From contig JAFYAH010000016.1 of assembly GCA_017540825.1 (NCBI GenBank), forward strand, positions 1 to 64,000: a DNA stretch of 64,000 bases, written 5' to 3'. This DNA comes from Candidatus Methanomethylophilaceae archaeon. GTDB lineage: Archaea; Thermoplasmatota; Thermoplasmata; Methanomassiliicoccales; Methanomethylophilaceae. Position numbers and translations under genes: made by a program. The notes under the pieces were generated by a model that ran no database searches, was not told where the DNA came from, and saw only the letters and a list, made by a program, of their open reading frames with translations. Below are positions 7,620 to 59,010 of the stretch, piece by piece. The stretch's first letter is position 1. Every line of letters starts with the position of its first letter.

Positions 7620-8647
7620 GTACGAAAACTTCACAATTCGACATTATGCATGACAACCATAATATGCCTGCACCCAATCTACCCGCCATGGATTTCATAA
7701 TGGAGTCCTGCCCGTACTGTGGCGGAAGCACTGAGAAAGACGAGTTCGGAAGGGTCTACTGCCAGAAGTGCGGGTAGCACCTTCGCACAAACAGGTCCGA
7801 CATGAGCCACATCGCGGACGAGTCCATCCCTTACGGAACCACGTTCCTGAAGATGGTCGAGAAGATCAAGGACAACAACTGCAAGGACGCGCTGGAGATC
7901 GCGGAGGGCATTGTGAAAGAAGACGGGGAGACGTTCTTCCCGTACCTGATGCGCGCCATCGCCTACTGCTACAACAGAGAGGACGGGAAGGCCCTCATGG
8001 ACTGGAAGACGTCCATATCCCTCATGGAAGGGACGGACAACGCCGACTCGTACGTCTGCCTCTTCTCCAAGAGCGTCTCCGACCTCATCATCGCCGACGA
8101 GCGCGACTTCATCGACTTCGACTATCTGACCCACATAGACAAGGTGTGCGAGGCCCTGGACGAGCGCCTGGAATGCAACTGCAAGGGGTTCGTGTACCTG
8201 ACGGTGTTCACCTGCTTCATGTCCTCCTACCTCGGGATGGAGGAGAGCGGGAAGAACCAGTGCAAGAACGTGGTCCCCAGCCTGGTCCAGAGGACGGTCG
8301 CGTACAGCAGGGACGCCAACATCCTGAAGGACGTCGTGAACGAGTACCTCGGGGTGAGCGACTACGACGAGACCACGTACAAGGACGACGACAACTACAG
8401 CCTGCACTCCCTGAGCGAGATCTCCAAGAGGATAGAGAGCAACCTGCCGAACGCGGACAAGTCGGAGTTCCCGGGAGGATGGACCGACGCGGAGATGAAG
8501 ACGTCGCTGGAAGGCTACCTCGCGGCCATCCTGGCGTGCGAGGACGACGACAAGCCTCTGGAGAAGTACGCCAAGAAGAACGGCACGATGACCGATCTGG
8601 ACCATGCCATCGAGGACTACTCGAGGAAGTACCTCCGCATCAGATGA
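7616..8647 (+). CDS. Zinc-ribbon/helical-repeat protein with in-frame amber codon (candidate pyrrolysine)
   Basis: The ATG overlaps the previous stop (ATGA). Codons 1-53 encode a short polar tail and a zinc ribbon (CPYCGG...CQKCG). Codon 54 is TAG (7775-7777). Eight sense codons later, in the same frame, comes ATG 7802 and a 281-residue helical region (TFLKMVEKIKDNNCKDALEI, NREDGKALMDWKTSIS) that looks TPR-like and ends at TGA. Under the standard code this is a 53-residue ribbon protein plus a separate gene with only a weak site (AGGT) before ATG 7802. As one 343-residue protein it mirrors the zinc-ribbon/Sel1 protein at 57382-59010, which also has an in-frame TAG. The role is unknown. Confidence 0.65.
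7775..7777 (+). other. In-frame TAG, codon 54 of the zinc-ribbon/helical-repeat gene
   Basis: The TAG falls directly after the zinc ribbon, and the frame continues uninterrupted for 290 codons. The position is a linker, so homology cannot decide between stop and sense here. Confidence 0.5.
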
Positions 8648-27621: not shown

Positions 27622-28185
27622 ATGAAGTTCCCGCCGTCGACGGACATCAAGAGGATGAGGAAATCCATGGACGTGACGCAGACCTGCCTCGCGAAATAGT
27701 CAGGTATCGGGCAGAGCACCATCGCCAAGATAGAGCAGGGGAAGATTTCCGCCAGCTACGCCACCGTGGTCAAGCTCTTCGAGACGCTAGAGGCCATGAA
27801 GCAGGAAGGACTCAAGGACCTGACCGCATCCGACGTCGCGTCTAAAGGGGTGGTCACGGTTCAGAGCTCGGAGAGCGTGCTCCGCGCCTCCGAGATCCTC
27901 AGGAGCACTGGATATTCCCAACTGCCTGTGATGGACGGCGAGGTCCCGGTCGGGAGCATATCGGAGAGGGACCTGTTCGACATGCTGAGGCAGGGCTTCA
28001 CGATGGGGCAGATGAGGTCCACCCAGGTCTCCAAGGTCATGAAGGAGTCTTTCCCGATAGTGTCGGACAGCACCCCGATGGCGCTGGTCACCCTCCTGAT
28101 GAGCGACAGCAACGCGGTACTCGTAGCCCAGAAAGGAAAGGTCACAGGGCTGATAACGAACGCGGACATGCTGAAGCTCATATGA
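27622..28185 (+). CDS. XRE helix-turn-helix plus CBS-pair regulator with in-frame amber codon
   Basis: ATG 27622 opens MKFPPSTDIKRMRKSMDVTQ, the start of an archaeal XRE-CBS regulator. Codon 26 is TAG (27697-27699), between TCLAK and SGIGQSTIAKIEQGKISASY. Relatives have a continuous helix-turn-helix here (pattern LAxxSGVSQSxIAKIE), so the frame is clearly one gene. Two CBS motifs follow (residues about 68-125 and 130-187; KGVVTVQSSESVLRASEI and LVTLLMSDSNAVLVAQKGKV), likely binding adenosyl ligands. Read with pyrrolysine, it has 187 residues; the alternative is a pseudogene or a shortened CBS-only protein from GTG 27766. It is divergent from the SAM synthetase gene. Confidence 0.85.
27697..27699 (+). 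other. In-frame TAG, codon 26 of the XRE-CBS regulator
   Basis: Lies in the turn region directly before SGIGQSTIAKIE of the helix-turn-helix. Conserved helix-turn-helix sequence on both sides makes a sense reading very likely. Confidence 0.8.
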
Positions 28186-43858: not shown

Positions 43859-45030
43859 ATGACCACCCCCATAAGGGCGGAGATGTCGCGGCACATGGCC
43901 TTCTGCGAGCACAGCGTCGGTAGGTAGTTTCCGGCCTTGGCGGAGTTGGTCCCCGTCCTCGAGAACGTACCCTCTATGGGGGCCACTACCATGCACGTGT
44001 CGGCCAGGACAGGCCCGAACTCCTCCATCACCCTGACGTCCTCGGGACATCTGTCCCTGACCTCCGCGGAGGTGCAGAACCATATCTCCACGTCCTTCCT
44101 GACCTTCCTCTTGCCTTTGAGGAACGACGCTATCTGGTGCATCTCCTTCTCGGTCAGATGGGGGCACCCTATCGCTATGAGCTCCACGTCGTCGGCCACG
44201 TTCAGCTTGTCGTAGGCCGCCTCGAGCTCCTTCTCGCCGATATGTATCGTCTCCAGGCCGGAGACGTCGAACCTGCCCGCCTCCGGGGTGGTCCCCTCGG
44301 CATGGTACAGCGCGACGGACCCGGAAGCGGCCATCGCGGCGGACAGGGCCTTCGCCTCCTCGACCTGCGGCCTTATCCCTCTGAAGTACGGGACGCCCGT
44401 GCCTATCGACATGCCGACCGCCTGTCCCAGGAGCGAATAGGAGAACACCGAGCCGTCGATGTCCGCGTCTATGACGACCGTAGGCCTCCTGTTGATGTCA
44501 AGGTGGAGGCCGTAGTTAGCAGTCTTGCCCAGGATGGCGGCGGCCAGGGCCCCGGGTCCGCCCTCGCGGTTGGTGCGGGCGCCGATGAACGAGTTCACGA
44601 ACGACAGAGCGGACGACTCCGCCCAGGCCACATGGTCCCCCAGCTTCGGGACGTTGGCCCCGGTGTAAGGCGTGCAGGAGCAGGTGGTCCTGATGCCCAT
44701 GCTCCCGTACAGGTCGATGATCCTGAGCTGCTTCTCGGCGAAGGCCTCGGGGATGTGCATCTCCCTCCATCTGGTGCGGTCCATCCCAACGGGGTTCAGG
44801 GTGGACGGGACCGAGACCTTGGCCCCGCCCGCGACCATGTCCTCGAGGTACTTCATGCCGCCGTCGCCGATGGTCTTGTAGGAGGCGCCGGAGAGGTGCG
44901 CGGAGGTTATGTCCACCAGGCTCTCGGCGCCGTATATCTTGCCGAGGGCGGTGACCAGCTCCATGGCCTTCTGCCTTCCCTCGCCTTCTTCGCCGTTGAG
45001 GATGGCCTCCTCGGCTCTTGTCAAATCCAT
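43855..45030 (-). CDS. Phosphomevalonate dehydratase large subunit (aconitase X)
   Basis: A 391-residue aconitase-X catalytic subunit of the modified archaeal mevalonate pathway. Start MDLTRAEEAILNGEEGEGRQ at ATG 45030. Iron-sulfur and active-site regions include IRTTCSCTPYTGANVPKLGD, AWAESSALSFVNSFIGARTN, REGGPGALAAAILGKTANYG, LIAIGCPHLTEKE, EIWFCTSAEV and TSAKAGNYLPTLCSQKAMCR in the last part. Its TGA overlaps the small-subunit start, indicating tight coupling. Confidence 0.93.
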   Translation of the reverse strand: MDLTRAEEAILNGEEGEGRQKAMELVTALGKIYGAESLVDITSAHLSGASYKTIGDGGMKYLEDMVAGGAKVSVPSTLNPVGMDRTRWREMHIPEAFAEKQLRIIDLYGSMGIRTTCSCTPYTGANVPKLGDHVAWAESSALSFVNSFIGARTNREGGPGALAAAILGKTANYGLHLDINRRPTVVIDADIDGSVFSYSLLGQAVGMSIGTGVPYFRGIRPQVEEAKALSAAMAASGSVALYHAEGTTPEAGRFDVSGLETIHIGEKELEAAYDKLNVADDVELIAIGCPHLTEKEMHQIASFLKGKRKVRKDVEIWFCTSAEVRDRCPEDVRVMEEFGPVLADTCMVVAPIEGTFSRTGTNSAKAGNYLPTLCSQKAMCRDISALMGVVM

Positions 45031-45159
45031 GAGGGTGCACCGCAAGGGATTCTAATAACCGTGTCGGAGCAGCCCGCGACGGTCGCTGCGGCGTCCGGCG
45101 ATCCCTACGTCCGTCTCTGGTCCCCTCCTGTCGTCCCCGGACCCCTGGCGCGGTCGGTC

Positions 45160-46903
45160 CTCGCAGGCTCCATACGTCGGAGTCGGTCTGGAGCTTCACC
45201 ATCCTCTCGAACAGCCCTCCGGATTCCCTCAGCACCGACGGCGGGCCTTCCTCGCCCACCTTCCCTCCCGACAGGACGACGATCTTGTCAGCCTCCTCCA
45301 CGGTCCTCATCCTGTGGGCGATTATCAGCACCGTCTTGTCGACTACGAGCCTGGACAGGGCCTTCTGGACCCTACTCTCCGATTCGGTGTCGAGCGAGGC
45401 CGTGGCTTCGTCCATGATGATGATCGGGGCGTCCTTCAGTATCGCCCTCGCTATGGATATCCTCTGCCTCTCGCCTCCGGAGAGCTTGCTCCCGTTCTCG
45501 CCTATCACCGTGCCGTATCCTTCGGGAAGAGCGGACACGAACTCGTCGCACATCGCAGCTTCGGCCGCCGCGAGCACCTCCTCGTCGGATGCTCCCCTCC
45601 TTCCTATGCGGATGTTCTCCATCACCGTGGTGTTGAACAGCACCACGTCCTGGAATACTATGGAGTACTTGCCCATCAGCGTCTCGGGATCGACCGTGGA
45701 TATGTCTATGCCCCCCAGGGTTATCTGCCCCTTGTCGACATCCCAGAACCTTGTGGCCAGCCTGGCGACGGTGGACTTCCCCTCTCCGGACGGGCCCACC
45801 AGCGCTGTGACCTCCCCCTGCCTCGCCACGAAGGAGACGTCCTCCAGGACCGTCTGGCCGCCGTTGTACGAGAACCCCACGTTCTTGAACTCGATATCGT
45901 AGTTCCGAGGCTCGAAGGACTCCGACCCGGTCTGGATCTCCATGCCGTTGATCTCCTGGATGCGCTCGCAGTGGTCCTCCGCCAGAAGCATGGCGGCAAG
46001 GTTCTGCAAGGCGATGTGGATCGGGTTGTAGATGCTCCCGACCATGATGAGGGCCGCGACGTAAGCTATCAGCGGTATGGAACCTTCGGAGAGCAGCACG
46101 GCGCCTGCTATGGCCGTGGTCGCGATCCCGAGCTTCAAGACCAGCTGCCCGCCGACCACGAATATGGTCATCGTCAGCTCCGACCTGATCTCCGCGCCCT
46201 CGACGGCGTCGAGATTCCTCCCCAGCTTCTCCATATAGGAGCCCTGCGCATCGTTGGCCTTGAGGTCCGCTGAGCATTCCAGAGACTCCTGTATCATCTC
46301 GGTGACGGCCTCCATCTTCTCGATCTTCTTCCTGTTCTCCTTCTTCTGCATCCCGGCCGAGAGGAACACCATGAGGAGCGCCACCGGGATCGGCCAGACT
46401 ATCGCCAGCCCTAATATGGGGGACCATGCGACTATCATCACGCCGACGGCGGTCGTGAATATCAGCGAGGCTATGAGGGCGGGGATCCAATGGGACAGCG
46501 CGGTCTCCTGCATCGTCACGTCGCCCATCATGCGCACCGTGAGGTCGGTGGGGTCCTTCTTGGCGAAGAACGACAGCGGGACCTTCCTCATCTTCTCCGC
46601 CATGCCCGTGCGGACGTTCCTGCTCTCCTGGTAGACGTCGAAGAAGCAGCGGTTGTACTGGTACAGATAGGCGGCGCCGGTCGCCAGCATCAGCACCAGG
46701 CCTATCGCCGCATAGACCCATAGTTCGAGGCCGAAATCGTACTGGTTGTCCCCTATCAGGCCGGCCACGAACATTATGGCGACCATCATCGGGACCATCA
46801 GGACGAAATCCGTGAGGAGCGTCGCCGCGATGGCCTCCTTGAGGTTGCTCCATTGCTACTCCGAGAGCCCCCAGCGTTCTTTGAGAGACCCTGGAACGCT
46901 CAT
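45160..46903 (-). CDS. ABC transporter, fused membrane/ATPase subunit 2, with in-frame amber codon
   Basis: ATG 46903 overlaps the stop of the partner ABC gene (ATGA). The N-terminus reads MSVPGSLKERWGLSE, TAG (46856-46858), then QWSNLKEAIAATLLTDFVLM. In relatives this segment is continuous (ALSE-x-G..DL.KA). A six-helix exporter-fold domain follows, then an ATPase with Walker A GPSGEGKST, signature LSGGERQRISIARAILKDAP and Walker B IIIMDEATASLD. The protein should end near 45160 (MVKLQTDSDVWSL) but the frame stays open to 44516. Without read-through the first start would be ATG 46798, losing helix 1. It probably pairs with the upstream subunit as an importer (YbtPQ-like) for a metal chelate. 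Confidence 0.85.
46856..46858 (-). other. In-frame TAG, codon 16 of ABC subunit 2
   Basis: Sits in the N-terminal elbow motif WGLSE-x-QWSNLKEA, which in relatives is continuous with a polar residue at this place. The gene's only coupled start (ATGA overlap) lies upstream of it, so the amber must be read for normal expression. Confidence 0.8.
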
Positions 46904-48687
46904 GCGGACGCCTCCTTGACCTTCCAGGAGAGGGCCTTCTGGTAGTCCTCCCACATGTCGCGGTACTTTCCAGCGGAGGACAAAAGCTCGTCGTGCCTTC
47001 CTGACTCGACTATCCTGCCGCGATCCATCACGCATATCAGGTCCGCGTTGCGGATGGTGGTGAGACGATGCGCTATCAGCAGCACGGTGCGGCCCTTGGA
47101 GAGCTCCTCGAACGCCTTCTGGATAAGATGCTCGTTCTCCGGGTCGGCGAACGCCGTCGCCTCGTCCAATATGACTATGGGGGCGTCCCTGAGGATGGCC
47201 CTGGCGATGGCGATCCTCTGCACCTCCCCTCCGGAGAGGTACGTCCCTCCTGGGCCTATCAGGGTGTCCAGGCCATAGGGCATCTTGGCGACGATGTCCT
47301 CGCATTGGGCGAGCCTGAGCGCTTCCGCCACCTCCTCGGGCCCGGCCTGAGGCCTTCCCAGACGGACGTTCTCCAGCAGAGTCCCTTTGATGAGGCGGTT
47401 GTTCTGGAAGACGTAGCTCTCTATGGAGCGCAGGTTGCTGCTGCCGATGTCCCGGAGGTCGATGCCGCCTATGGATATCGAGCCCTCCTGCGGATCCCAG
47501 AACCTTCCGGCCAGACCCGCCATCGTGGACTTCCCGCTGCCGGAGGGCCCTACGAGAGCGGTTATCGTCCCTTGCTTCAGCTCCAGGGATACGCCGTCTA
47601 TCGCGGACGCCAAGCCCTCGGAGTAGGAGAAGCGGACGTTGTCGAACGCGATGTCGAAGCCCTTCGGCATCCTAGGGGCGGCGGGCTCTTCCAGAGGCTC
47701 GATGGAAAGGATCTCGTTCACCCGCATCAGGGCGTCGTCCACCCTGTAGGTCTGGTCGGACGAGAACATTATCCTCATGAACAGGACCGAGATGAGCGGC
47801 GTGAACACCACGTAAAATATCACGTTGGAGACCATGCCGCTGCTTATCTCGCCGTTCTCCAGGACCTCGATGATCAGCACCCCGAAGACGATCACGTACG
47901 ACACGCAGCTGTTGACCAGGACGAAGAATGCGGTCATCGGCCTCCTAGCCATCTCGGTGTACCCCTGGCAGTACGCGGCGTAGGAGTCGATGGACCCATT
48001 GAGGCTCTGGAATGAATCCACGGTCTGCTGGAATATCTTCACAACGGAGATCCCGCGGACGTACTCCACAGCCTTGTTGTTGACATCGGCCATGGAAGAC
48101 TGCCATGCGGTCATGCTCTCCTGCATGGAGGACCTTCCCATCATGGACATGGAGATGTATCCCCCGATCATCACGGGGACGAGAGCGGCGACGCCCAGCC
48201 TCCAGTCGAACACCAGCAGCAGGGCGGCTATCGCGAACGGGAGGACGTACATCCCGGCCAGGTCCGGCTGATTATGCGCTATGAACTCGTGGGTGGACTC
48301 CACCGAGTCCTGTATCACCCTGCGTATCCTGCCGCTGCCCTCATCGTCGAACGCGCCTGGAGAAAGCTTCAGGGAATGCTCCACGAGCGTCTTCTTCATG
48401 TTCTTGGCTATGCGGAAGGCGGCGAAGTGCGACACCACGAGCGACAGGATGTAGACAGCTATCGACAGCGCCGCGAAAGCCATCGCCGACCAGCCGTATC
48501 CTATCATCGCATCCATGTCGCCCGCGCCGAGCGCCTCGTTGACCGTCAGCCAGATGTAATAGAAGGGCACGATGGACAGAATCGAGCTTATGGCCGACCC
48601 TATCATAGAGGCCGTCACCCAATGATGCCTGCCCTCGGCATATCTCTCGAATTCCGCTATGCGGCTATGCTTGTCTTTCTTGACCAT
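46900..48687 (-). CDS. ABC transporter, fused membrane/ATPase subunit 1
   Basis: A 595-residue exporter-fold ABC protein: six membrane helices (residues about 20-300) and an ATPase with Walker A GPSGSGKST, signature LSGGEVQRIAIARAILRDAP and Walker B VILDEATAFADPENEH. It is translated together with subunit 2, with which it should form a heterodimer. Location beside a siderophore-type uptake system and an AraC regulator recalls yersiniabactin-type YbtP/YbtQ importers. No TAG in frame. Confidence 0.92.
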   Translation of the reverse strand: MVKKDKHSRIAEFERYAEGRHHWVTASMIGSAISSILSIVPFYYIWLTVNEALGAGDMDAMIGYGWSAMAFAALSIAVYILSLVVSHFAAFRIAKNMKKTLVEHSLKLSPGAFDDEGSGRIRRVIQDSVESTHEFIAHNQPDLAGMYVLPFAIAALLLVFDWRLGVAALVPVMIGGYISMSMMGRSSMQESMTAWQSSMADVNNKAVEYVRGISVVKIFQQTVDSFQSLNGSIDSYAAYCQGYTEMARRPMTAFFVLVNSCVSYVIVFGVLIIEVLENGEISSGMVSNVIFYVVFTPLISVLFMRIMFSSDQTYRVDDALMRVNEILSIEPLEEPAAPRMPKGFDIAFDNVRFSYSEGLASAIDGVSLELKQGTITALVGPSGSGKSTMAGLAGRFWDPQEGSISIGGIDLRDIGSSNLRSIESYVFQNNRLIKGTLLENVRLGRPQAGPEEVAEALRLAQCEDIVAKMPYGLDTLIGPGGTYLSGGEVQRIAIARAILRDAPIVILDEATAFADPENEHLIQKAFEELSKGRTVLLIAHRLTTIRNADLICVMDRGRIVESGRHDELLSSAGKYRDMWEDYQKALSWKVKEASA

Positions 48688-48749: not shown

Positions 48750-49520
48750 TCAAGAGTGCTTCAGGGACCCGTAGGCGACCACATGCGGGAGCCCGTCGCG
48801 ATCGTGGATCACCTCTGCGTTCACCTTGTAGACGTCCCTCAGCATCTCCTCCGTGAAGATCTCCTGGGCGGGCCCCTTGGCATACACCTGCCCCTCCTGG
48901 AGCACCACGACATCGTCCGCGAAGCGGGAGGCCAGGTTCAGGTCGTGAAGGATCATCACTGTCACCAGTCCGCGCTGTTCCGACAGGTCCTTCACGACCT
49001 CGAACATCTCCAGCTGCTTCTGGAGGTCGAGGTTGTTCGTGGGCTCGTCCATGAGCAGGAGCTGCGGCTCCTTGACCAGCGCTTGGGCGATGGAGATCAT
49101 CTGCATCTGCCCGCCGGACAGCTCGTTGATCTGCTTGTCCGCGATCCTGTCGAGAGAGAGCTCCGACATCGCATGGTCCACCATCCGCCTGTCCTCGTCG
49201 CTGGGGCTCCATCTGATGTGGTTGATCCTCCCGAGGAGGATCGTCTCGTACACGGTCATCGCCACGGCGCTCATGTGCTGCTGCGGCAGGTATCCCACCA
49301 GGTCGGTCGAGGTCTGGTCGACGCGGCCTATCTCCGTGCCGTTGAACGAGATGGACCCGCCATGGGGAATCTGCCCCGCCATGCATTTGATCAACGTGGA
49401 CTTGCCCGCGGCGTTCGGCCCCACCACCGCTATCAGCCTGGCGTCGGATTCGAAGGACACGTCGTGCAGGACCTGCTTCTGGCTGTAGCTGCATACCACG
49501 CCCTTGAGCTCCAGGCTCAT
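48750..49520 (-). CDS. ABC transporter ATPase, FecE/FepC type
   Basis: A 256-residue ATPase for an iron-chelate or cobalamin-type importer. It has Walker A GPNAAGKSTLIKC, the Q-loop VGYLPQQHM, signature ELSGGQMQMISIAQALVKEP, Walker B LLLMDEPTNNLD and the switch His in MILHDLNLASRFADDVVVLQ. Its ATG overlaps the stop of the permease gene. Confidence 0.94.
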   Translation of the reverse strand: MSLELKGVVCSYSQKQVLHDVSFESDARLIAVVGPNAAGKSTLIKCMAGQIPHGGSISFNGTEIGRVDQTSTDLVGYLPQQHMSAVAMTVYETILLGRINHIRWSPSDEDRRMVDHAMSELSLDRIADKQINELSGGQMQMISIAQALVKEPQLLLMDEPTNNLDLQKQLEMFEVVKDLSEQRGLVTVMILHDLNLASRFADDVVVLQEGQVYAKGPAQEIFTEEMLRDVYKVNAEVIHDRDGLPHVVAYGSLKHS

Positions 49521-50581
49521 GATGCGAACCTCCTCTTCGAAAGGACGAGATAGAAGAAGAACGGGATCCCGATGAACGACGTGAGGATCCCGACCGGGAA
49601 TATCGACGGCGCCGCCACCACCTTGCTCAGCATGTTGGCCATGATGAGGATGATCGCACCTACCGCCATGGACATCGGGATGTAGTACCTGTGGTCCTCG
49701 CCCACGAGGAACCTCGAGATGTGCGGCGCTATCAGCCCGATGAAGCCGATCGTTCCCACGAAGCAGACGGCGACGGAGGTGAGCACCGACACCACTATCA
49801 GGGTCCTTCTCCTGAGCCCTGCGACGTCCACGCCGAGGCTAGACGCGTACGCGTCCCCGAGCTTGAGGGCGGTGTACCTCCACGAGCTGAGAAGGAACAC
49901 GACCGATGAGATGGAAAGCACCAGGATGACCGCGCCGCACTGCTCCAGCGAGCATCTGGCGAGGCTCCCGAACATCCAGAACACTATCTCCGACAGCTGG
50001 TTGCTGTTCGCGAGCAGCTGCATCGTGGAGAGCAGGGCCTGGAACATGAAGAATATCGCTATCCCTGTCAGCAGGATGGTCGACTTGTCGGAGGCCCTGA
50101 ACCTGGCCACCATGTAGATGACCAGGCAGGCCATCATGCTGCAGCCGAATGCGCCGGCGGAGATCATGATCATCCCCATCGCTCCGACCGCGGAGGACCC
50201 GACGACTATCATCAGCGCGGCCCCGAACCCGGCCGACGAGGATATCCCCAGCGTGTACGGCTCGGCCATCGGGTTGTCCAGGATCGTCTGCATGACCGAT
50301 CCGGCGAGCGCTAGGCTCATCCCGACGGCTATCGCCATGGTCGTCGCCGGAAGGCGTATGTCATAGATTATCAGCCTGTCCATGGCGGTGACCTGGTCCG
50401 GTACGAAGAGCGTCCTTATGGCGTCGATGACCGACATCCCCGAGGAACCCACGGTGAGGTCTATGAAAAAAGCCGCCGCGCACACCACGATCGATGCCGC
50501 CAGGTACATCTTGCGCCTGCCTATCAGGCGATCGTATCCTTTCATCATGCGGGAGCCGTCTGTAGCTTCGTGATTCTCCAT
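49517..50581 (-). CDS. Iron-chelate ABC permease, FecCD family
   Basis: A 354-residue permease with about ten membrane helices. Family motifs: RLPATTMAIAVGMSLALAGS, MQTILDNPMAEPYTLGISSS, GFIGLIAPHISRFLVGEDHR and the C-terminal PVGILTSFIGIPFFFYLVLS. One permease gene is present, so it probably works as a homodimer with the FecE-type ATPase. It follows the triple-domain binding protein by 58 bases. Confidence 0.94.
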   Translation of the reverse strand: MENHEATDGSRMMKGYDRLIGRRKMYLAASIVVCAAAFFIDLTVGSSGMSVIDAIRTLFVPDQVTAMDRLIIYDIRLPATTMAIAVGMSLALAGSVMQTILDNPMAEPYTLGISSSAGFGAALMIVVGSSAVGAMGMIMISAGAFGCSMMACLVIYMVARFRASDKSTILLTGIAIFFMFQALLSTMQLLANSNQLSEIVFWMFGSLARCSLEQCGAVILVLSISSVVFLLSSWRYTALKLGDAYASSLGVDVAGLRRRTLIVVSVLTSVAVCFVGTIGFIGLIAPHISRFLVGEDHRYYIPMSMAVGAIILIMANMLSKVVAAPSIFPVGILTSFIGIPFFFYLVLSKRRFAS

Positions 50582-50639: not shown

Positions 50640-53600
50640 TCAGGAAGTGGCTCCCACCTCTCCGTCGATGGAGAAATACCAGACGCCCTTGAACTCGACC
50701 CATGGGAGGTACTCGGAATAGTACCCGTCCAGGGTCCCGAGGCAGTCCAGGTCGCTGTAGATCTCCGGGAACATGGTCTCAGCCATGAACTGGTAGACGA
50801 ACCAGCAGTCGAACATGCCGATCATGCTCATCTTGTCGATGAAGTAGACGTTGCCGCTGCTGATCGCAGGCACCGAATCGCTCCAGCCTATCCTCTTGCC
50901 GAGCTTGGCCGCTATGGAGTCGATGTCGGACTTGGTGACGCTGGCCCCCCATCCGATGAACTTGCCGCACTCCGGGGCGTACGACCTGAGGAGGTCGAAG
51001 AAGACGAAGTCGACATCGCTCGTCGCGAACACCTCGGGGCTCACGGTCTGCTTGTACTGGGTCAAGGACTTCTGGTTGAGGCACTCTATGGGGTTGTCCG
51101 ACTCGTTCTGGCTGTACTGCGACAGGTATGTGACGAGCTCGACATAGTACGTGTACTTCTCCGCAGGGACCTGCGAGAGCTTGCTGGACACCTTCTCGAC
51201 CTGCTTCTTGTAGAAGTCGGCGACCTTCGCGGCCGTGGACTGGTTGTCGAATATCCTTCCTACGATGTCGCAGTTCTTGCTCATGGTGTCCGGGTTGAGC
51301 TTTCCGACGAACAGGTCGAGAGTGACTATGGGGATGCCTGCCTTCGCCATCTTGTCCACGGTATCCTGGCTGACCATCCCGTACTGGATGCACCAGGTGG
51401 GGATGAAGACCGCATCGGGGTTCAGCGATGCGACCGTCTCCCAGTTGAACGTCCCTTGGAGGAAGCTGCCGACCTCGGTCATCCTTCCGAAGTCCATGCC
51501 GGCGTTTGACCACATCTCCTTCAGGTCCGGGTAGAACGAGTTGAGGTTGCTGTCGTATCCGACGACCATGTCGACGAACTGCTCGCCTGCGATGGAGGCG
51601 ATCAGGGTCATCGACTCGGCGTCGCCGCACACCACCCTCTTCAGAGGGACCTCGAGCGCCACCTCGCGCCCGGCCAGGTCGGTCACCGTCACCGTCCTGC
51701 CCACGTCTCCGCCCCCGGACGTCTGGGTCTCCCCGATGTCGCCGTCCAGGGTGAAATACCAGACGCCTTTGAGCTCGACCCAGGGCAGGAACTCCTCGTA
51801 GAAGCTTTCCAGGGATCCGACCGGGTCCAGCGACGAGAACATGTCGGGGAACATCTGCATAGCATGGAGCTGGAGGATCATCCAGTTCTCGAACGTGTTG
51901 AAATAGACCTGGTCGTAGACCATGACGTCCTTGCTCTTCACTGCGGTGACGCTGTTCCATCCGGGTCTCTTGGACAACGAGGCGCTTATGTCGGCGATGT
52001 CGGAAGCGGTGACCGTCGCACCCCACCCGATGTTCCTTCCGCATTCGGCCGCGCCGTTGTAGGCCATGAAGAAGACGTGATCCGGATCGCTCGAGACGAA
52101 GGCCTCTGCGCTTATCTGCTGCCCGGGCGTCGCGATGTTCTCCTGGCCGAGAGCCAGTGCCTCTGCGACGTTGGCTCCGCCCCTGTACGTGTCGAGCTTG
52201 ACCAGCATCTCTTCGTAGAAGGAGAACTTCCCCTCAGGGATCTGGGATCTCTTGCCGAGAACGGAATCCAGCTGCTCCGCGTAGAAGTCGGCGACCTTGG
52301 AAGCGACGCCTCTCCTGTCGAAGATCTTTCCGATGATGTCGCAGTTCTTGGACATCGTATCAGCGTCGTAGCTGTTGACGAAAAGATCGAGGTTCACTAT
52401 CGGGATGCCTGCGTCGGCCATCTTCTTGGCCGTGTCTTCGGACACCATCCCGTACTGGTACACCCACATCGGGACGAAGACCACGTCCGGGTCCAGGGAG
52501 GCGACGGCTTCCCAGCTGAACGTCGTGTTCTGGAAGCTTCCGACAGAGGCGATCTTGGAGAAGTCTATCCCGGCATTCTCCCACATCCTGGCCAGGTCGG
52601 GGTAGTACGTCTGGAGGTTGCTGTCGTATCCGACGAGGCAGTCCTTGAAGCCCTCCCCGGCGATGGCCGCTATCAAGGACATCACCTCGGCGTCGCCGCA
52701 GACCACCCTCTCTACAGGGGTGCTTATCTTGACTTCCCGCCCTGCGAGATCGGTTATGGTGACCGTGGTCTCCTTGTCCCTGCTCTCCGACACCGGGGTC
52801 GCCCCGACCTCGCCGTTGAGGCCGAAGTACCATACGCCTCTGAAGTCGACCCAGGGGAGGTACGTCTTGTAGAAATCGCCCAGCGCCTCGATGTATCCCA
52901 GGTCGCCGAAGATCTCTGGGAACATCTTCTCTGCATAGAACTGCTGTATCCACCAGCCGTCTATGGTCCCGCTCATGGACATCTTGTTTATGAAATAGAC
53001 CTCGTTGTTGTCGATGGCTGGGATGCTGCCGGCCCATCCGACCCTCTTGTCGAGAGCCGCAGCGAGCGTGCGGAGCTCCGGCTCCGTGGGGGCCTTGGCT
53101 CCCCATCCGATGTACTTCCCGACGTCCGGGTAGTATGCTCTGAGAAGATCCAGGAATATGAAGTCCACATCGCTGGAAGCGAACGCCTCTGCGCCCACGG
53201 TCTCGCCGTACTTGGTGAGGGACTTCTGGTTGAGCGCCTCCTGCGGCTTGCCGTCGTCCGTAGAATAGTTCAGGCAATACTGGCCGAGACTGGTTATCGT
53301 CTCTATGTAGTACGTGTACTTGTCCGCAGGGACCTGCGACATCTTGCTGGAGACCTTCTCCACCTGGTTCCTGTAGAATTTGGCCACATCGCCCGCCGTG
53401 CGCTCGTTCTTGAATATCTTTCCGAGCACCTCGCAGTTCTTGGCCATCTCGTCCGCGTTGAGCTTGGCCGAGAACAGGTCCAGGGTGACGATTGGGATTC
53501 CGGCCTTGGCCATGTTGTCGATGCTCTCCTGGGTGACCATCCCGTATGTGATGCACCAGTACGGGACGAACACGGCGTCGGGCTTCAGCAAAGCGACCGT

Positions 53601-53975
53601 CTCCCAGTTGAACGAGGAGTCCAGGAAGGATCCCACCGGCTTGATCTTAGAGAAGTCCATGCCGGCATCAGTCCACATATCCATGAAATCTGGATACATC
53701 TCGCGAAGATTGCTGTCATACCCTACCAGGATGTTCCCAAAGTTCTTTCCAGCTATCGACCCTATCAGGGTCATCAGGCCTGCGTCGCCGCAGACGACCC
53801 TCTCCAGGGGGACCTTGAGCTGGACCTCGTTGCCAGCCATGTCCGTCACCTTCAAGGTCTCCTTCTCGACAGGGGCCTTGTCGTCGCTGCTGCCGCCCAT
53901 GACGACGAAGGCTGCCACAGCAGCGAGGGCGACCACTGCGATGATGGCTATCAAAGCGATAATCTTTTTATCCAT
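50640..53975 (-). CDS. Giant substrate-binding protein with three tandem FepB/BtuF-type domains
   Basis: An 1111-residue extracytoplasmic protein anchored by an N-terminal helix (IIALIAIIAVVALAAVAAFV); there is no lipobox cysteine. Three consecutive copies of a class III binding domain of about 350 residues follow. They begin at KVTDMAGNEVQLKVPLERVV, TITDLAGREVKISTPVERVV and TVTDLAGREVALEVPLKRVV, each with CGDA, LVGYDSN or VVGYDSN, and an end block LPWV...GVWYF. Domains 1 and 3 are closest to each other; domain 2 has diverged (no CLNYS-like block). It feeds the FecD/FecE pair. Triple-domain fusion is rare, since this family normally has one domain per protein. A TATA-like box on the minus strand is at about 54020-54028. 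Confidence 0.93.
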   Translation of the reverse strand: MDKKIIALIAIIAVVALAAVAAFVVMGGSSDDKAPVEKETLKVTDMAGNEVQLKVPLERVVCGDAGLMTLIGSIAGKNFGNILVGYDSNLREMYPDFMDMWTDAGMDFSKIKPVGSFLDSSFNWETVALLKPDAVFVPYWCITYGMVTQESIDNMAKAGIPIVTLDLFSAKLNADEMAKNCEVLGKIFKNERTAGDVAKFYRNQVEKVSSKMSQVPADKYTYYIETITSLGQYCLNYSTDDGKPQEALNQKSLTKYGETVGAEAFASSDVDFIFLDLLRAYYPDVGKYIGWGAKAPTEPELRTLAAALDKRVGWAGSIPAIDNNEVYFINKMSMSGTIDGWWIQQFYAEKMFPEIFGDLGYIEALGDFYKTYLPWVDFRGVWYFGLNGEVGATPVSESRDKETTVTITDLAGREVKISTPVERVVCGDAEVMSLIAAIAGEGFKDCLVGYDSNLQTYYPDLARMWENAGIDFSKIASVGSFQNTTFSWEAVASLDPDVVFVPMWVYQYGMVSEDTAKKMADAGIPIVNLDLFVNSYDADTMSKNCDIIGKIFDRRGVASKVADFYAEQLDSVLGKRSQIPEGKFSFYEEMLVKLDTYRGGANVAEALALGQENIATPGQQISAEAFVSSDPDHVFFMAYNGAAECGRNIGWGATVTASDIADISASLSKRPGWNSVTAVKSKDVMVYDQVYFNTFENWMILQLHAMQMFPDMFSSLDPVGSLESFYEEFLPWVELKGVWYFTLDGDIGETQTSGGGDVGRTVTVTDLAGREVALEVPLKRVVCGDAESMTLIASIAGEQFVDMVVGYDSNLNSFYPDLKEMWSNAGMDFGRMTEVGSFLQGTFNWETVASLNPDAVFIPTWCIQYGMVSQDTVDKMAKAGIPIVTLDLFVGKLNPDTMSKNCDIVGRIFDNQSTAAKVADFYKKQVEKVSSKLSQVPAEKYTYYVELVTYLSQYSQNESDNPIECLNQKSLTQYKQTVSPEVFATSDVDFVFFDLLRSYAPECGKFIGWGASVTKSDIDSIAAKLGKRIGWSDSVPAISSGNVYFIDKMSMIGMFDCWFVYQFMAETMFPEIYSDLDCLGTLDGYYSEYLPWVEFKGVWYFSIDGEVGATS

Positions 53976-54017
53976 TCTACCACCGATATGGTATCAGGAT
54001 GGATTATCTCGCCGATT

Positions 54018-54030
54018 CAATATTTAACCA
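54018..54030. promoter_or_regulatory. Shared AT-rich promoter between the binding-protein and AraC genes
   Basis: AATATTTAACC is near-palindromic at its core. On the minus strand GGTTAAATATT can serve the binding-protein gene. On the plus strand it lies about 27 bases from ATG 54050 of the AraC gene, fitting a leaderless start. Confidence 0.4.
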
Positions 54031-54049
54031 TGACTAAAAATTACAAATA

Positions 54050-55078
54050 ATGGGGCCTTCCTCACTGCCTCAAGGTCGGCGAGGCGGCATGGACGCTCTG
54101 CTCTACAACAATTTCGAGATCACACCGTTCGAATCGGGCCTCAGATACTCCATCATCGGCCCTGACGGATCGACCGATGTGATGAACTATCCTTTCGAGG
54201 GGTTCGTCGTGAACCATATGGTCACGGACATGCCGAGGTTCTCCAACAGGAACCAAATCGGCCACATGAACTACATCATGATAGACTGCACGGTGCGCGG
54301 TAGGATGACCATAGAGTACAGCGGAAAGCATCTGTCCCTGTCGCCCGGCAGCGTCGTCATCTATTACCCGGTGAGCGTGCAGTCGTTCATGACCGTCCAC
54401 ACGGAAGGATACGAGTCGATCACCATCGGAATAGACCTGGACAGATACGGCATCCTGCCCGAAGACGCCGATATGGAGCCTGTCGGCGCTGTCGGGCGGT
54501 TCGTTGAGCAGCACAAGGACAGGCCGCTGTGGCCTTTGAGGCTGCCAGACAGGCCCATGGCCGACGTCATAGCCATCTAGAGGGCCTTGGTTCGTCCTGA
54601 GAGAAGGGCGCTGATCCATGCTCTCGTGGACGAGATCCTGGAAGACCTTTCCGAGCCGCTGGACGCTCGCTCCGAGGGGATGGTCCTGACAGATTACGCG
54701 AAAAGGGAGGACCGGCTGTACGACAGGCTGGCGTCTTGCTACGACCGCCCATGCAACATGAGGGAGGCATGCCTGGACCTCGGCATGGACAGATGCAACA
54801 TATGCTCGTCCTTCTCGAAGGTGTACGGGGATACGCCCTACGCATTCCATAAGCGCCAGAGGATGCTCTGTGCCTCCGGCGAGCTGATGGTCGGCGACGA
54901 GCCCATCGGGGCGATCGCGAACGGCATCGGCTTCCAGAAGGAGAGCAAATTCGCCGAGGAGTTCCAGAAGATGTTCGGATGCACCCCCAGCCGGTTCAGG
55001 AAGAGGTGCCGCAGTATGCTCGACGGATCGTCCCGCATCGACAGCCGAAGCGGCCGTCCTGCCGGCTCCCGAGGTTAA
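54050..55078 (+). CDS. AraC-family regulator with in-frame amber codon
   Basis: A 342-codon gene divergent from the uptake operon. The N-terminal part (NFEITPFESGLRYSIIGPDG, then LSPGSVVIYYPVSVQSFMTV) is an AraC-type ligand-binding region. Codon 177 is TAG (54578-54580), between PMADVIAI and RALVRPERRALIHALVDEIL. The C-terminal part has the double helix-turn-helix: CNMREACLDLGMDRCNICSS and EPIGAIANGIGFQKESKFAE...FGCTPSRFRKR. Without read-through the protein would lose its DNA-binding domain. AraC regulators are uncommon in archaea; transfer from bacteria is likely. ATG 54089 is an alternative start. It stops at TAA. Confidence 0.85.
54578..54580 (+). other. In-frame TAG, codon 177 of the AraC regulator
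   Basis: Lies between the ligand-binding and DNA-binding halves. Both halves are in the same frame with no other stop, and the second half has no ATG start nearby and no ribosome-binding site. Confidence 0.75.
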
Positions 55079-57381: not shown

Positions 57382-59010
57382 TCAGAACTTGAACCCGAAC
57401 AGCTTTATCCCCTTCTTCTCCTGGGGCTGGTCGCTGCTCCCGGAGGACGATCCCCCCTTGTAAGCGACCTTCGTCTTCGAAGGGAAGACCTCCGCGCCCA
57501 GGGTGGAGTCCTTGCCGAGCGTGATGGAGTCCAGGGCCGTGCATCTGGTGAAGGCGCGGTCGCCGATCGCCACCGCCGAGGACGGCATGGAGACCGACGA
57601 GAGGGACGTGCATCCGGCGAACGCGCCGGTGCCGATGGCGTTCAGGGACGAGGGGATCGATATCGAGTGCAGGGCGGTGCATCCCGAGAACGACTTGTCC
57701 CCCAGCTTTGACAGCGAGGACGACAGGCCGACGGAGGAGAGCTTCGTGCAGTCGCGGAAGGCCCCCTCCCCCACGGATGTGACCGAGGATGGCATGGACA
57801 CCGAGCACAGGGAGTCGCACCCCTGGAACGCGAAGTCCCCGATGGTCGCGAGGTTGGGCGACATGGTCACCGAGGAGAGGGCGTTGCATTCGCGGAAGGC
57901 CCCCTCGCCCAATGAGGTCACCGAGGGGGGCATGGACACCGACGACAGCGCGGTGCATCCCTGGAACGCGCGCTCCCCTATGGTGGTCAGCGACTGGGGG
58001 AGGCTCACGGAGGCGAGCGCGGTGCACCCGGAGAAGGCGCTCCTCTCTATGGATATCAAAGAAGGCGGCAGAGTCACGGAGGCCAGGGACTTGCAGTCCG
58101 AGAACATCCCCCTCTCCAAGACGGCCAAGGAAGTCGGCAGGGTGATCGCAGCCAAGGACCTGCAGCCGGAGAACGCCCCGTAGTCTATGGTCTTCACCGA
58201 GGGCGGGATCATCGCCTTCGAGAGCGACTTGCACCCCGAGAACGCGTCCTTCCCTATCGACGTCACCGAAGGGGGGATCTCTATGGACTCCAGCGAGGTG
58301 CAGCCCTGGAACGCGCGGTCGCCGATGGACTTCACCGACGGCGGTATGTTTATGCTGACCAGCCTCTTGCATTCCCGGAACATGTCCCTGTCGATCTTGG
58401 AAGTCCTGGGCGGGATTGTGAACGTCTTGAAGCCCTTTATGATCATGCGCAGGGGCCTGGTGCACTTCCCCCCGGAAGAGGCCTTCTCGAACCATTTCAA
58501 GGCCTCGGAGTCGGACTGCAGGCGGGTGCTGTTTGAATAGATGTACGAGAGCTTGTACTGGGACTAGACGTCCCCCTTCTTGGCCAGGTTCAGGACGACG
58601 TCGAAGATCATGAAGTCCATCTGCTCCTTCTTGAAGGGGGTGCCGGAGAGGATGCAGCTGTTCTCCAGCGAGCGGACCGCGCTCTCCGGAGGGTCGGCTA
58701 TCGGGAAGTCGCTCTTCATCAGCTCGCTGACGCCGTCTATGCGCCATATGTCCGCGTCGGCGGCGTTTATGGAGATGAGGTTCTTGGTCATCTCGAGCGC
58801 CTTGTCGAACTCGCCCTTCTGGCAGTAGGCGGCGGCCAACGGCTTCAGGCTGGCCCTCTGCTCCTTGACGGACATCTCGATGTTGATATGGTTTACATCC
58901 TTCGTGACGAGGACCTTGGAGCCACAGTACATGCAGAAGCCGAACTCGCGGGAGTCGTCCAGGTCTATGTCGCCGGCGCAGTTGGGACATTTGAGCGAGA
59001 CTAAAGCCAT
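57382..59010 (-). CDS. Zinc-ribbon, Sel1-repeat and leucine-rich-repeat (BspA-like) protein with in-frame amber codon
   Basis: ATG 59010 begins MALVSLKCPNCAGDIDLDDS, a zinc ribbon (CPNC...CMYC). A helical region follows, ending NLAKKGDV. Codon 149 is TAG (58564-58566), then SQYKLSYIYSNSTRLQSDSE and ALKWFEKASSGG. These two sides together form one Sel1 repeat (A..GD-x-xQY.L...Y......D..EA.KWF.KA...G). About 14 BspA-type leucine-rich repeats (SIxIPPSVxSIGDxAFxGCxSL) fill residues about 190-520. It stops at TGA. BspA-like repeats mediate adhesion or protein contact; no signal peptide is seen, so it is probably cytoplasmic. Without read-through, the LRR part would have only a TTG start. Confidence 0.85.
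58564..58566 (-). other. In-frame TAG, codon 149, inside a Sel1 repeat
   Basis: The TAG interrupts the consensus GD-x-xSQYKL of a Sel1 repeat at a position usually held by a polar residue. This places the codon within a folded domain and strongly supports a sense reading. Confidence 0.85.

Follow-up and report, generated by a model that had tools for sequence, protein, structure and literature searches.

An AraC-Family Regulator Probably Read through an In-Frame TAG

The gene lying at positions 54089–55078 of the window (i.e., the whole stretch of 64,000 nucleotides analyzed here) very probably codes for a full-length regulator of the AraC family, which is probably functional and controls the neighboring uptake operon of Fec (iron-chelate) type, and whose in-frame UAG is translated as pyrrolysine (Pyl), with no dedicated switch being involved; we assign to this reading a probability of about 0.9. 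Since pyrrolysine is synthesized by this organism and UAG is routinely decoded there as an amino acid, an ordinary pyrrolysine codon is the most likely interpretation. The features of the gene are the following:

54089–55078, + strand: AraC-family regulator gene, read through the TAG (329 aa plus TAA stop; probable start 54089)
54578–54580, + strand: in-frame TAG, most likely pyrrolysine (codon 164; codon 177 in the original prediction)
54779–55006, + strand: AraC HTH_18 DNA-binding domain (Pfam match)

The frame extending from 54050 to 55078 on the + strand is interrupted only by the TAG at 54578–54580 and is closed by a TAA. This TAG is codon 177 in the numbering of the original prediction and codon 164 of 329 if the count begins at 54089. 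The latter is probably the actual start, giving a protein of about 329 aa, since the AraC homologues begin, in the alignment, at Met14 of the longer frame and since in a third species (RGIG5104) the ATG matching 54050 leads to a stop after six codons; the same species retains both the ATG matching 54089 and the promoter-like block described below. The codon bias of the AraC frame is 0.376 bits/codon before the TAG and 0.276 after it, all other frames being lower, and the C-terminal part carries an AraC-type helix-turn-helix (HTH) that places the protein in the AraC family (Pfam HTH_18, E 7.6e-16; 56.7 bits for the whole protein versus a cut-off of 33.6). Though in-frame TAGs are common in this genome, the frame is not a random ORF arisen by chance.

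The TAG also occurs in a separately assembled sister species (G018; 86% identical), and an assembly error is therefore an unlikely source of it. The dN/dS values calculated versus the sister (0.16 before the TAG and 0.40 after) and versus RGIG5104 (0.30 before and 0.21 after) show that purifying selection acts on both halves of the gene. The read-through to a full-length protein envisaged in the original prediction is supported, the coding bias, the selection and the fold being found on both sides of the TAG. Among the points that run counter to the pyrrolysine reading are the dN/dS versus the sister, which is higher after the TAG (0.40) than before it, and the conservation of the TAG in the sister, which a switch would also predict; the latter is not unusual, since 9 of 16 TAGs are shared by the two genomes (see below).

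The Host Decodes UAG and Uses TAG as a Sense Codon

The host is a Methanomethylophilaceae-type gut methanogen harboring a Pyl cassette (contig C68 of its genome, G000), in which MtmB is followed by tRNA-Pyl (anticodon CTA), PylS, two ORFs located where PylB and PylC are expected, and PylD. PylS (255.5 bits) and PylD (200.2 bits, NCBIfam match) both lie over their cut-offs; the PylB- and PylC-like ORFs were assigned by position and size rather than by a family search, the former also exhibiting a radical-SAM-like CxxxCxxC motif. The in-frame amber of MtmB corresponds to residue 206, within the Pfam match spanning 13–461. The organism possesses the elements that characterize pyrrolysine decoding: tRNA-Pyl(CUA), PylS, PylD, PylB- and PylC-like ORFs, and an amber codon in a methylamine methyltransferase.

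The way in which TAG is used was analyzed in two manners. A coding-continuation test was carried out on a 356 kb sample of the genome, considering those stops that follow strongly coding sequence, and in-frame coding sequence was found to continue past 15 of the 30 TAGs versus 21 of the 257 TAA and TGA codons (Fisher p 7e-8). Some of the TGA/TAA continuations are adjoining genes sharing the same frame (such as the gene before MtmB), and therefore the contrast is conservative. About half of the strongly coding frames that meet a TAG have no clear coding sequence beyond it, so that some TAGs may still end genes. A comparison with 1.25 Mb of the sister G018, for which about 1.06 Mb of the genome was used, yielded 340 reciprocal best pairs with a median protein identity of 85.7% and revealed 16 internal TAG columns with conserved flanks on both sides, nine of them shared and seven standing opposite a sense codon (K, Q, S, Y, D, C, and S). 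TAG is found at the gene end in only 2 of the 340 pairs, both with a further stop within six codons; these cases were tallied separately from the internal columns because they fail the flank filter. In addition, Pfam domains run across TAG in MtmB, NADAR, OB-fold, integrase, MgsA_C, and HAD hydrolase proteins, as well as in the HTH_3 protein of the window. Judged from a sample of about 45% of the genome, TAG generally serves as a sense codon, being rare as a terminator and embedded in conserved coding sequence.

Other TAG-containing frames can be recognized in the window. A regulator of the HTH_3-CBS (XRE-type) class (27622–28182, + strand) has its TAG (27697–27699) inside the HTH domain; in the gene of a BspA-type leucine-rich-repeat protein (57385–58758, − strand), coding sequence both precedes and follows the TAG at 58564–58566; and in a zinc-ribbon-like protein (7646–8644, + strand) the TAG at 7775–7777, common to the sister, adjoins the second CxxC motif. 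Elsewhere, at locus L036 (724–2235, − strand), an ArsR-type HTH and an ArsM-like methyltransferase form one frame via a TAG at residue 135, which is possibly a domain-joining TAG.

The Distribution of TAG Codons in the AraC Family

The alignment of eleven AraC homologues (the window's own included) revealed that the column of codon 164 contains TAG only in the window genome and in its sister, the other sequences exhibiting AGG, CGG, AAG, CAG, or TGG (coding for Arg, Lys, Gln, or Trp). Over the whole family, TAGs fall at four unrelated columns: the sister gene harbors a second one, opposite a CAG of the window gene and differing from it by a single C/T exchange; in two other homologues a TAG falls in the barrel, at the column of residue 103, and in one it falls in the HTH, at that of residue 250 (residues numbered as in the original prediction). 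Ambers come and go across the family, a pattern different from that of a switch, which would be expected to hold one site. A further AraC fragment of the sister (L020; G018:C58:83867–84100), located on the same contig and 44% identical over the HTH, also has a frame with one TAG.

According to the pyrrolysine reading, the standing PylS/tRNA-Pyl system would translate the UAG of the AraC messenger, as in many other genes of the genome, and Pyl would be inserted at codon 164. Its codon probably took the place of one for an Arg/Lys/Gln-like residue in a helix of the sensor domain, in what was probably a near-neutral change.

As for the origin of the gene, AraC proteins were expected to be sparse in archaea, and among 60 genomes of the order, HTH_18 was indeed detected in no more than 9. 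The proposal that the gene was acquired and that the amber came afterwards is borne out in its second part by the sense codons of the relatives (AGG/CGG/AAG/CAG/TGG). A bacterial origin is plausible; the search for a donor was negative, the contig scan yielding only Methanomethylophilaceae, Methanomassiliicoccaceae, and Thermoplasmata MAGs, some of which are labelled rumen or omasum.

The Position of the TAG and the Alternative Explanations

The AlphaFold2 model of the protein (pLDDT 80, pTM 0.82) consists, in this order, of a beta barrel, three helices (132–142, 154–166, and 170–187), a linker at about 188–205 modelled with low confidence, and the HTH helices from 206 onwards. The search for a Pfam sensor domain in the AraC protein gave no match; a cupin-like sensor is nevertheless indicated by the modelled barrel and by fold matches to AraC regulators and cupins. 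According to Foldseek, CuxR, ToxT, Rns, and CsvR match over both halves, with low global TM-scores; they share with the modelled protein the beta-barrel sensor, the helices, the linker, and the HTH, and differ from it in sequence (10–14% identity), in its archaeal host, and in the probable Pyl. In the model, the TAG residue falls inside the sensor-domain helix 154–166, in a block of mean pLDDT 91. The amber had been placed between the sensor and the DNA-binding halves; it is real and flanked by coding sequence on both sides, but it would lie upstream of the joint, within the sensor.

This position bears on the idea that the codon is a regulated switch, in which a stop at UAG would give a sensor-only decoy, read-through would give the activator, and the Pyl supply would set the ratio between the two. 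The TAG is upstream of the HTH and common to the sister species, competition by the release factor at UAG is conceivable, and Pyl levels may vary with growth conditions. However, the model suggests that termination at the TAG would remove the sensor helix 170–187 together with the HTH, cutting within the helices of the sensor. In AraC-type proteins the equivalent helices of the sensor domain commonly constitute the dimer interface. Since the TAG precedes one such helix, a clean sensor decoy would not be expected to result from the truncation. Moreover, the genome uses TAG generally as a sense codon, the other AraC members have a TAG elsewhere (even in the HTH) or no TAG at all, and the search for a recoding element after the TAG gave no Rfam match and structure z-scores (+0.6) with nothing unusual. 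Neither the decoy nor the decoy/activator switch of the original prediction is supported by these data, and we regard a dedicated switch as very improbable.

A switch is possible only as a quantitative dependence on the Pyl supply. It is conceivable that the yield of the full-length regulator depends on this supply and that the UAG couples iron or methylamine status to the expression of the uptake operon, the coupling to iron being suggested by the fact that Pyl synthesis needs the radical-SAM enzyme PylB and hence iron; we would give this idea hardly any credit.

It is scarcely credible that the locus codes for two separate proteins, one a sensor terminated by the TAG and the other an HTH protein restarting at the TTG at 54587. 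The stretch from this TTG to 55078 is open under table 11, but no recognisable ribosome-binding site was seen by inspection before the TTG, the fold match covers both halves, and three homologues (L011, L012, and L013) are a single uninterrupted chain with Arg at the TAG column. Least probable of all is a pseudogene in which the TAG is a nonsense mutation: the standard code does break the AraC frame, but coding bias and purifying selection persist beyond the TAG, 495 bases of frame are kept without any further stop, more than one species has the TAG, and UAG is decoded by the organism.

The Adjacent Uptake Operon

The AraC gene and the gene for a protein with three FecB-type domains point away from each other, and beyond the latter are located the genes for a FecCD permease, a FecE-type ATPase, and two ABC proteins of exporter type:

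53976–54088, no strand assigned: intergenic region between the divergent genes, candidate promoter/operator
50640–53975, − strand: protein with three tandem Peripla_BP_2 (FecB-type) binding domains (Pfam; 1111 aa)
49517–50581, − strand: FecCD-type permease (Pfam)
48750–49520, − strand: FecE-type ABC ATPase
46900–48687, − strand: ABC exporter-type protein (ABC_membrane plus ABC_tran), same strand and probably same operon
44519–46903, − strand: second ABC exporter-type protein, with an in-frame TAG at codon 16; called 3′ end uncertain

The TAG of the second exporter-type gene (46856–46858, codon 16) corresponds to AAG in the sister. The triple FecB-type fusion is also found in the sister, and a two-domain version in a relative (L045).

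The original prediction had linked the regulator to this operon, and the context speaks in its favor. In 10 of 11 loci (the window counted), the AraC gene adjoins a binding-protein-like gene, a Fec permease/ATPase gene, or a linked ABC gene, some of these neighbors having been recognized by eye from their N-terminal sequence and not through a Pfam search; at the remaining locus (L015), no uptake-type gene was found within about 1.5 kb of the AraC gene. Because of this synteny with transporter genes, regulation of the adjacent Fec-type uptake operon by the AraC protein is supported by context. The protein would act by activation rather than repression, and its putative ligand might be an iron chelate or possibly heme or a corrinoid, all of which are conceivable for this transporter class.

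In the intergenic region, a block of about 36 bases (approximately 54020–54055), including a TATA-like stretch, is nearly invariant in three species, more so than the adjoining sequence, and represents a candidate promoter/operator. The search for AraC half-site repeats in the same region returned only short, unconvincing inverted repeats. At two further loci, L047 (2449–3741) and L048 (4586–5878), a binding-protein gene lies beside paralogous AraC genes, with a dockerin-like domain (Pfam, L047 only).

PchR, YbtA, and AlcR are AraC-type regulators of siderophore uptake. The locus described here resembles theirs in having an AraC-type gene beside a chelate-uptake operon, with exporter-type ABC genes similar to YbtPQ nearby, the homology having been assessed for the AraC domain only.

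Probable Pyrrolysine in a Transcription Factor

An archaeal code in which all TAG codons are read as pyrrolysine has reportedly been described by Kivenson and others (Science, 2025). The genome analyzed here resembles that code in the use of TAG as a sense codon nearly absent as a terminator; unlike the organisms of that code, its membership is deduced from the sequence alone. The closest comparison is with Ca. Methanomethylophilus alvus, in which TAG stops only 1.6% of the genes, 16 further Pyl proteins have been predicted, and in-frame ambers were argued to be a stable, tolerated change (Borrel et al. 2014, PMC4153887). The two organisms belong to the same methanogen order, harbor the Pyl cassette, are depleted of TAG as a stop, and have in-frame TAGs in unrelated proteins whose homologues are without TAG, Sel1-repeat proteins included; the species and the genes differ, and no AraC regulator is among the 16 proteins of Ca. 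M. alvus (PMC4153887).

With the gene studied in this work, a transcription factor joins the list of probable pyrrolysine proteins. The AraC family also provides a clear case of natural exchange between TAG and an ordinary codon, with CAG in one species and TAG in its sister. Finally, where annotation shows only a truncated AraC fragment in such gut methanogens, the gene probably codes for a whole protein.
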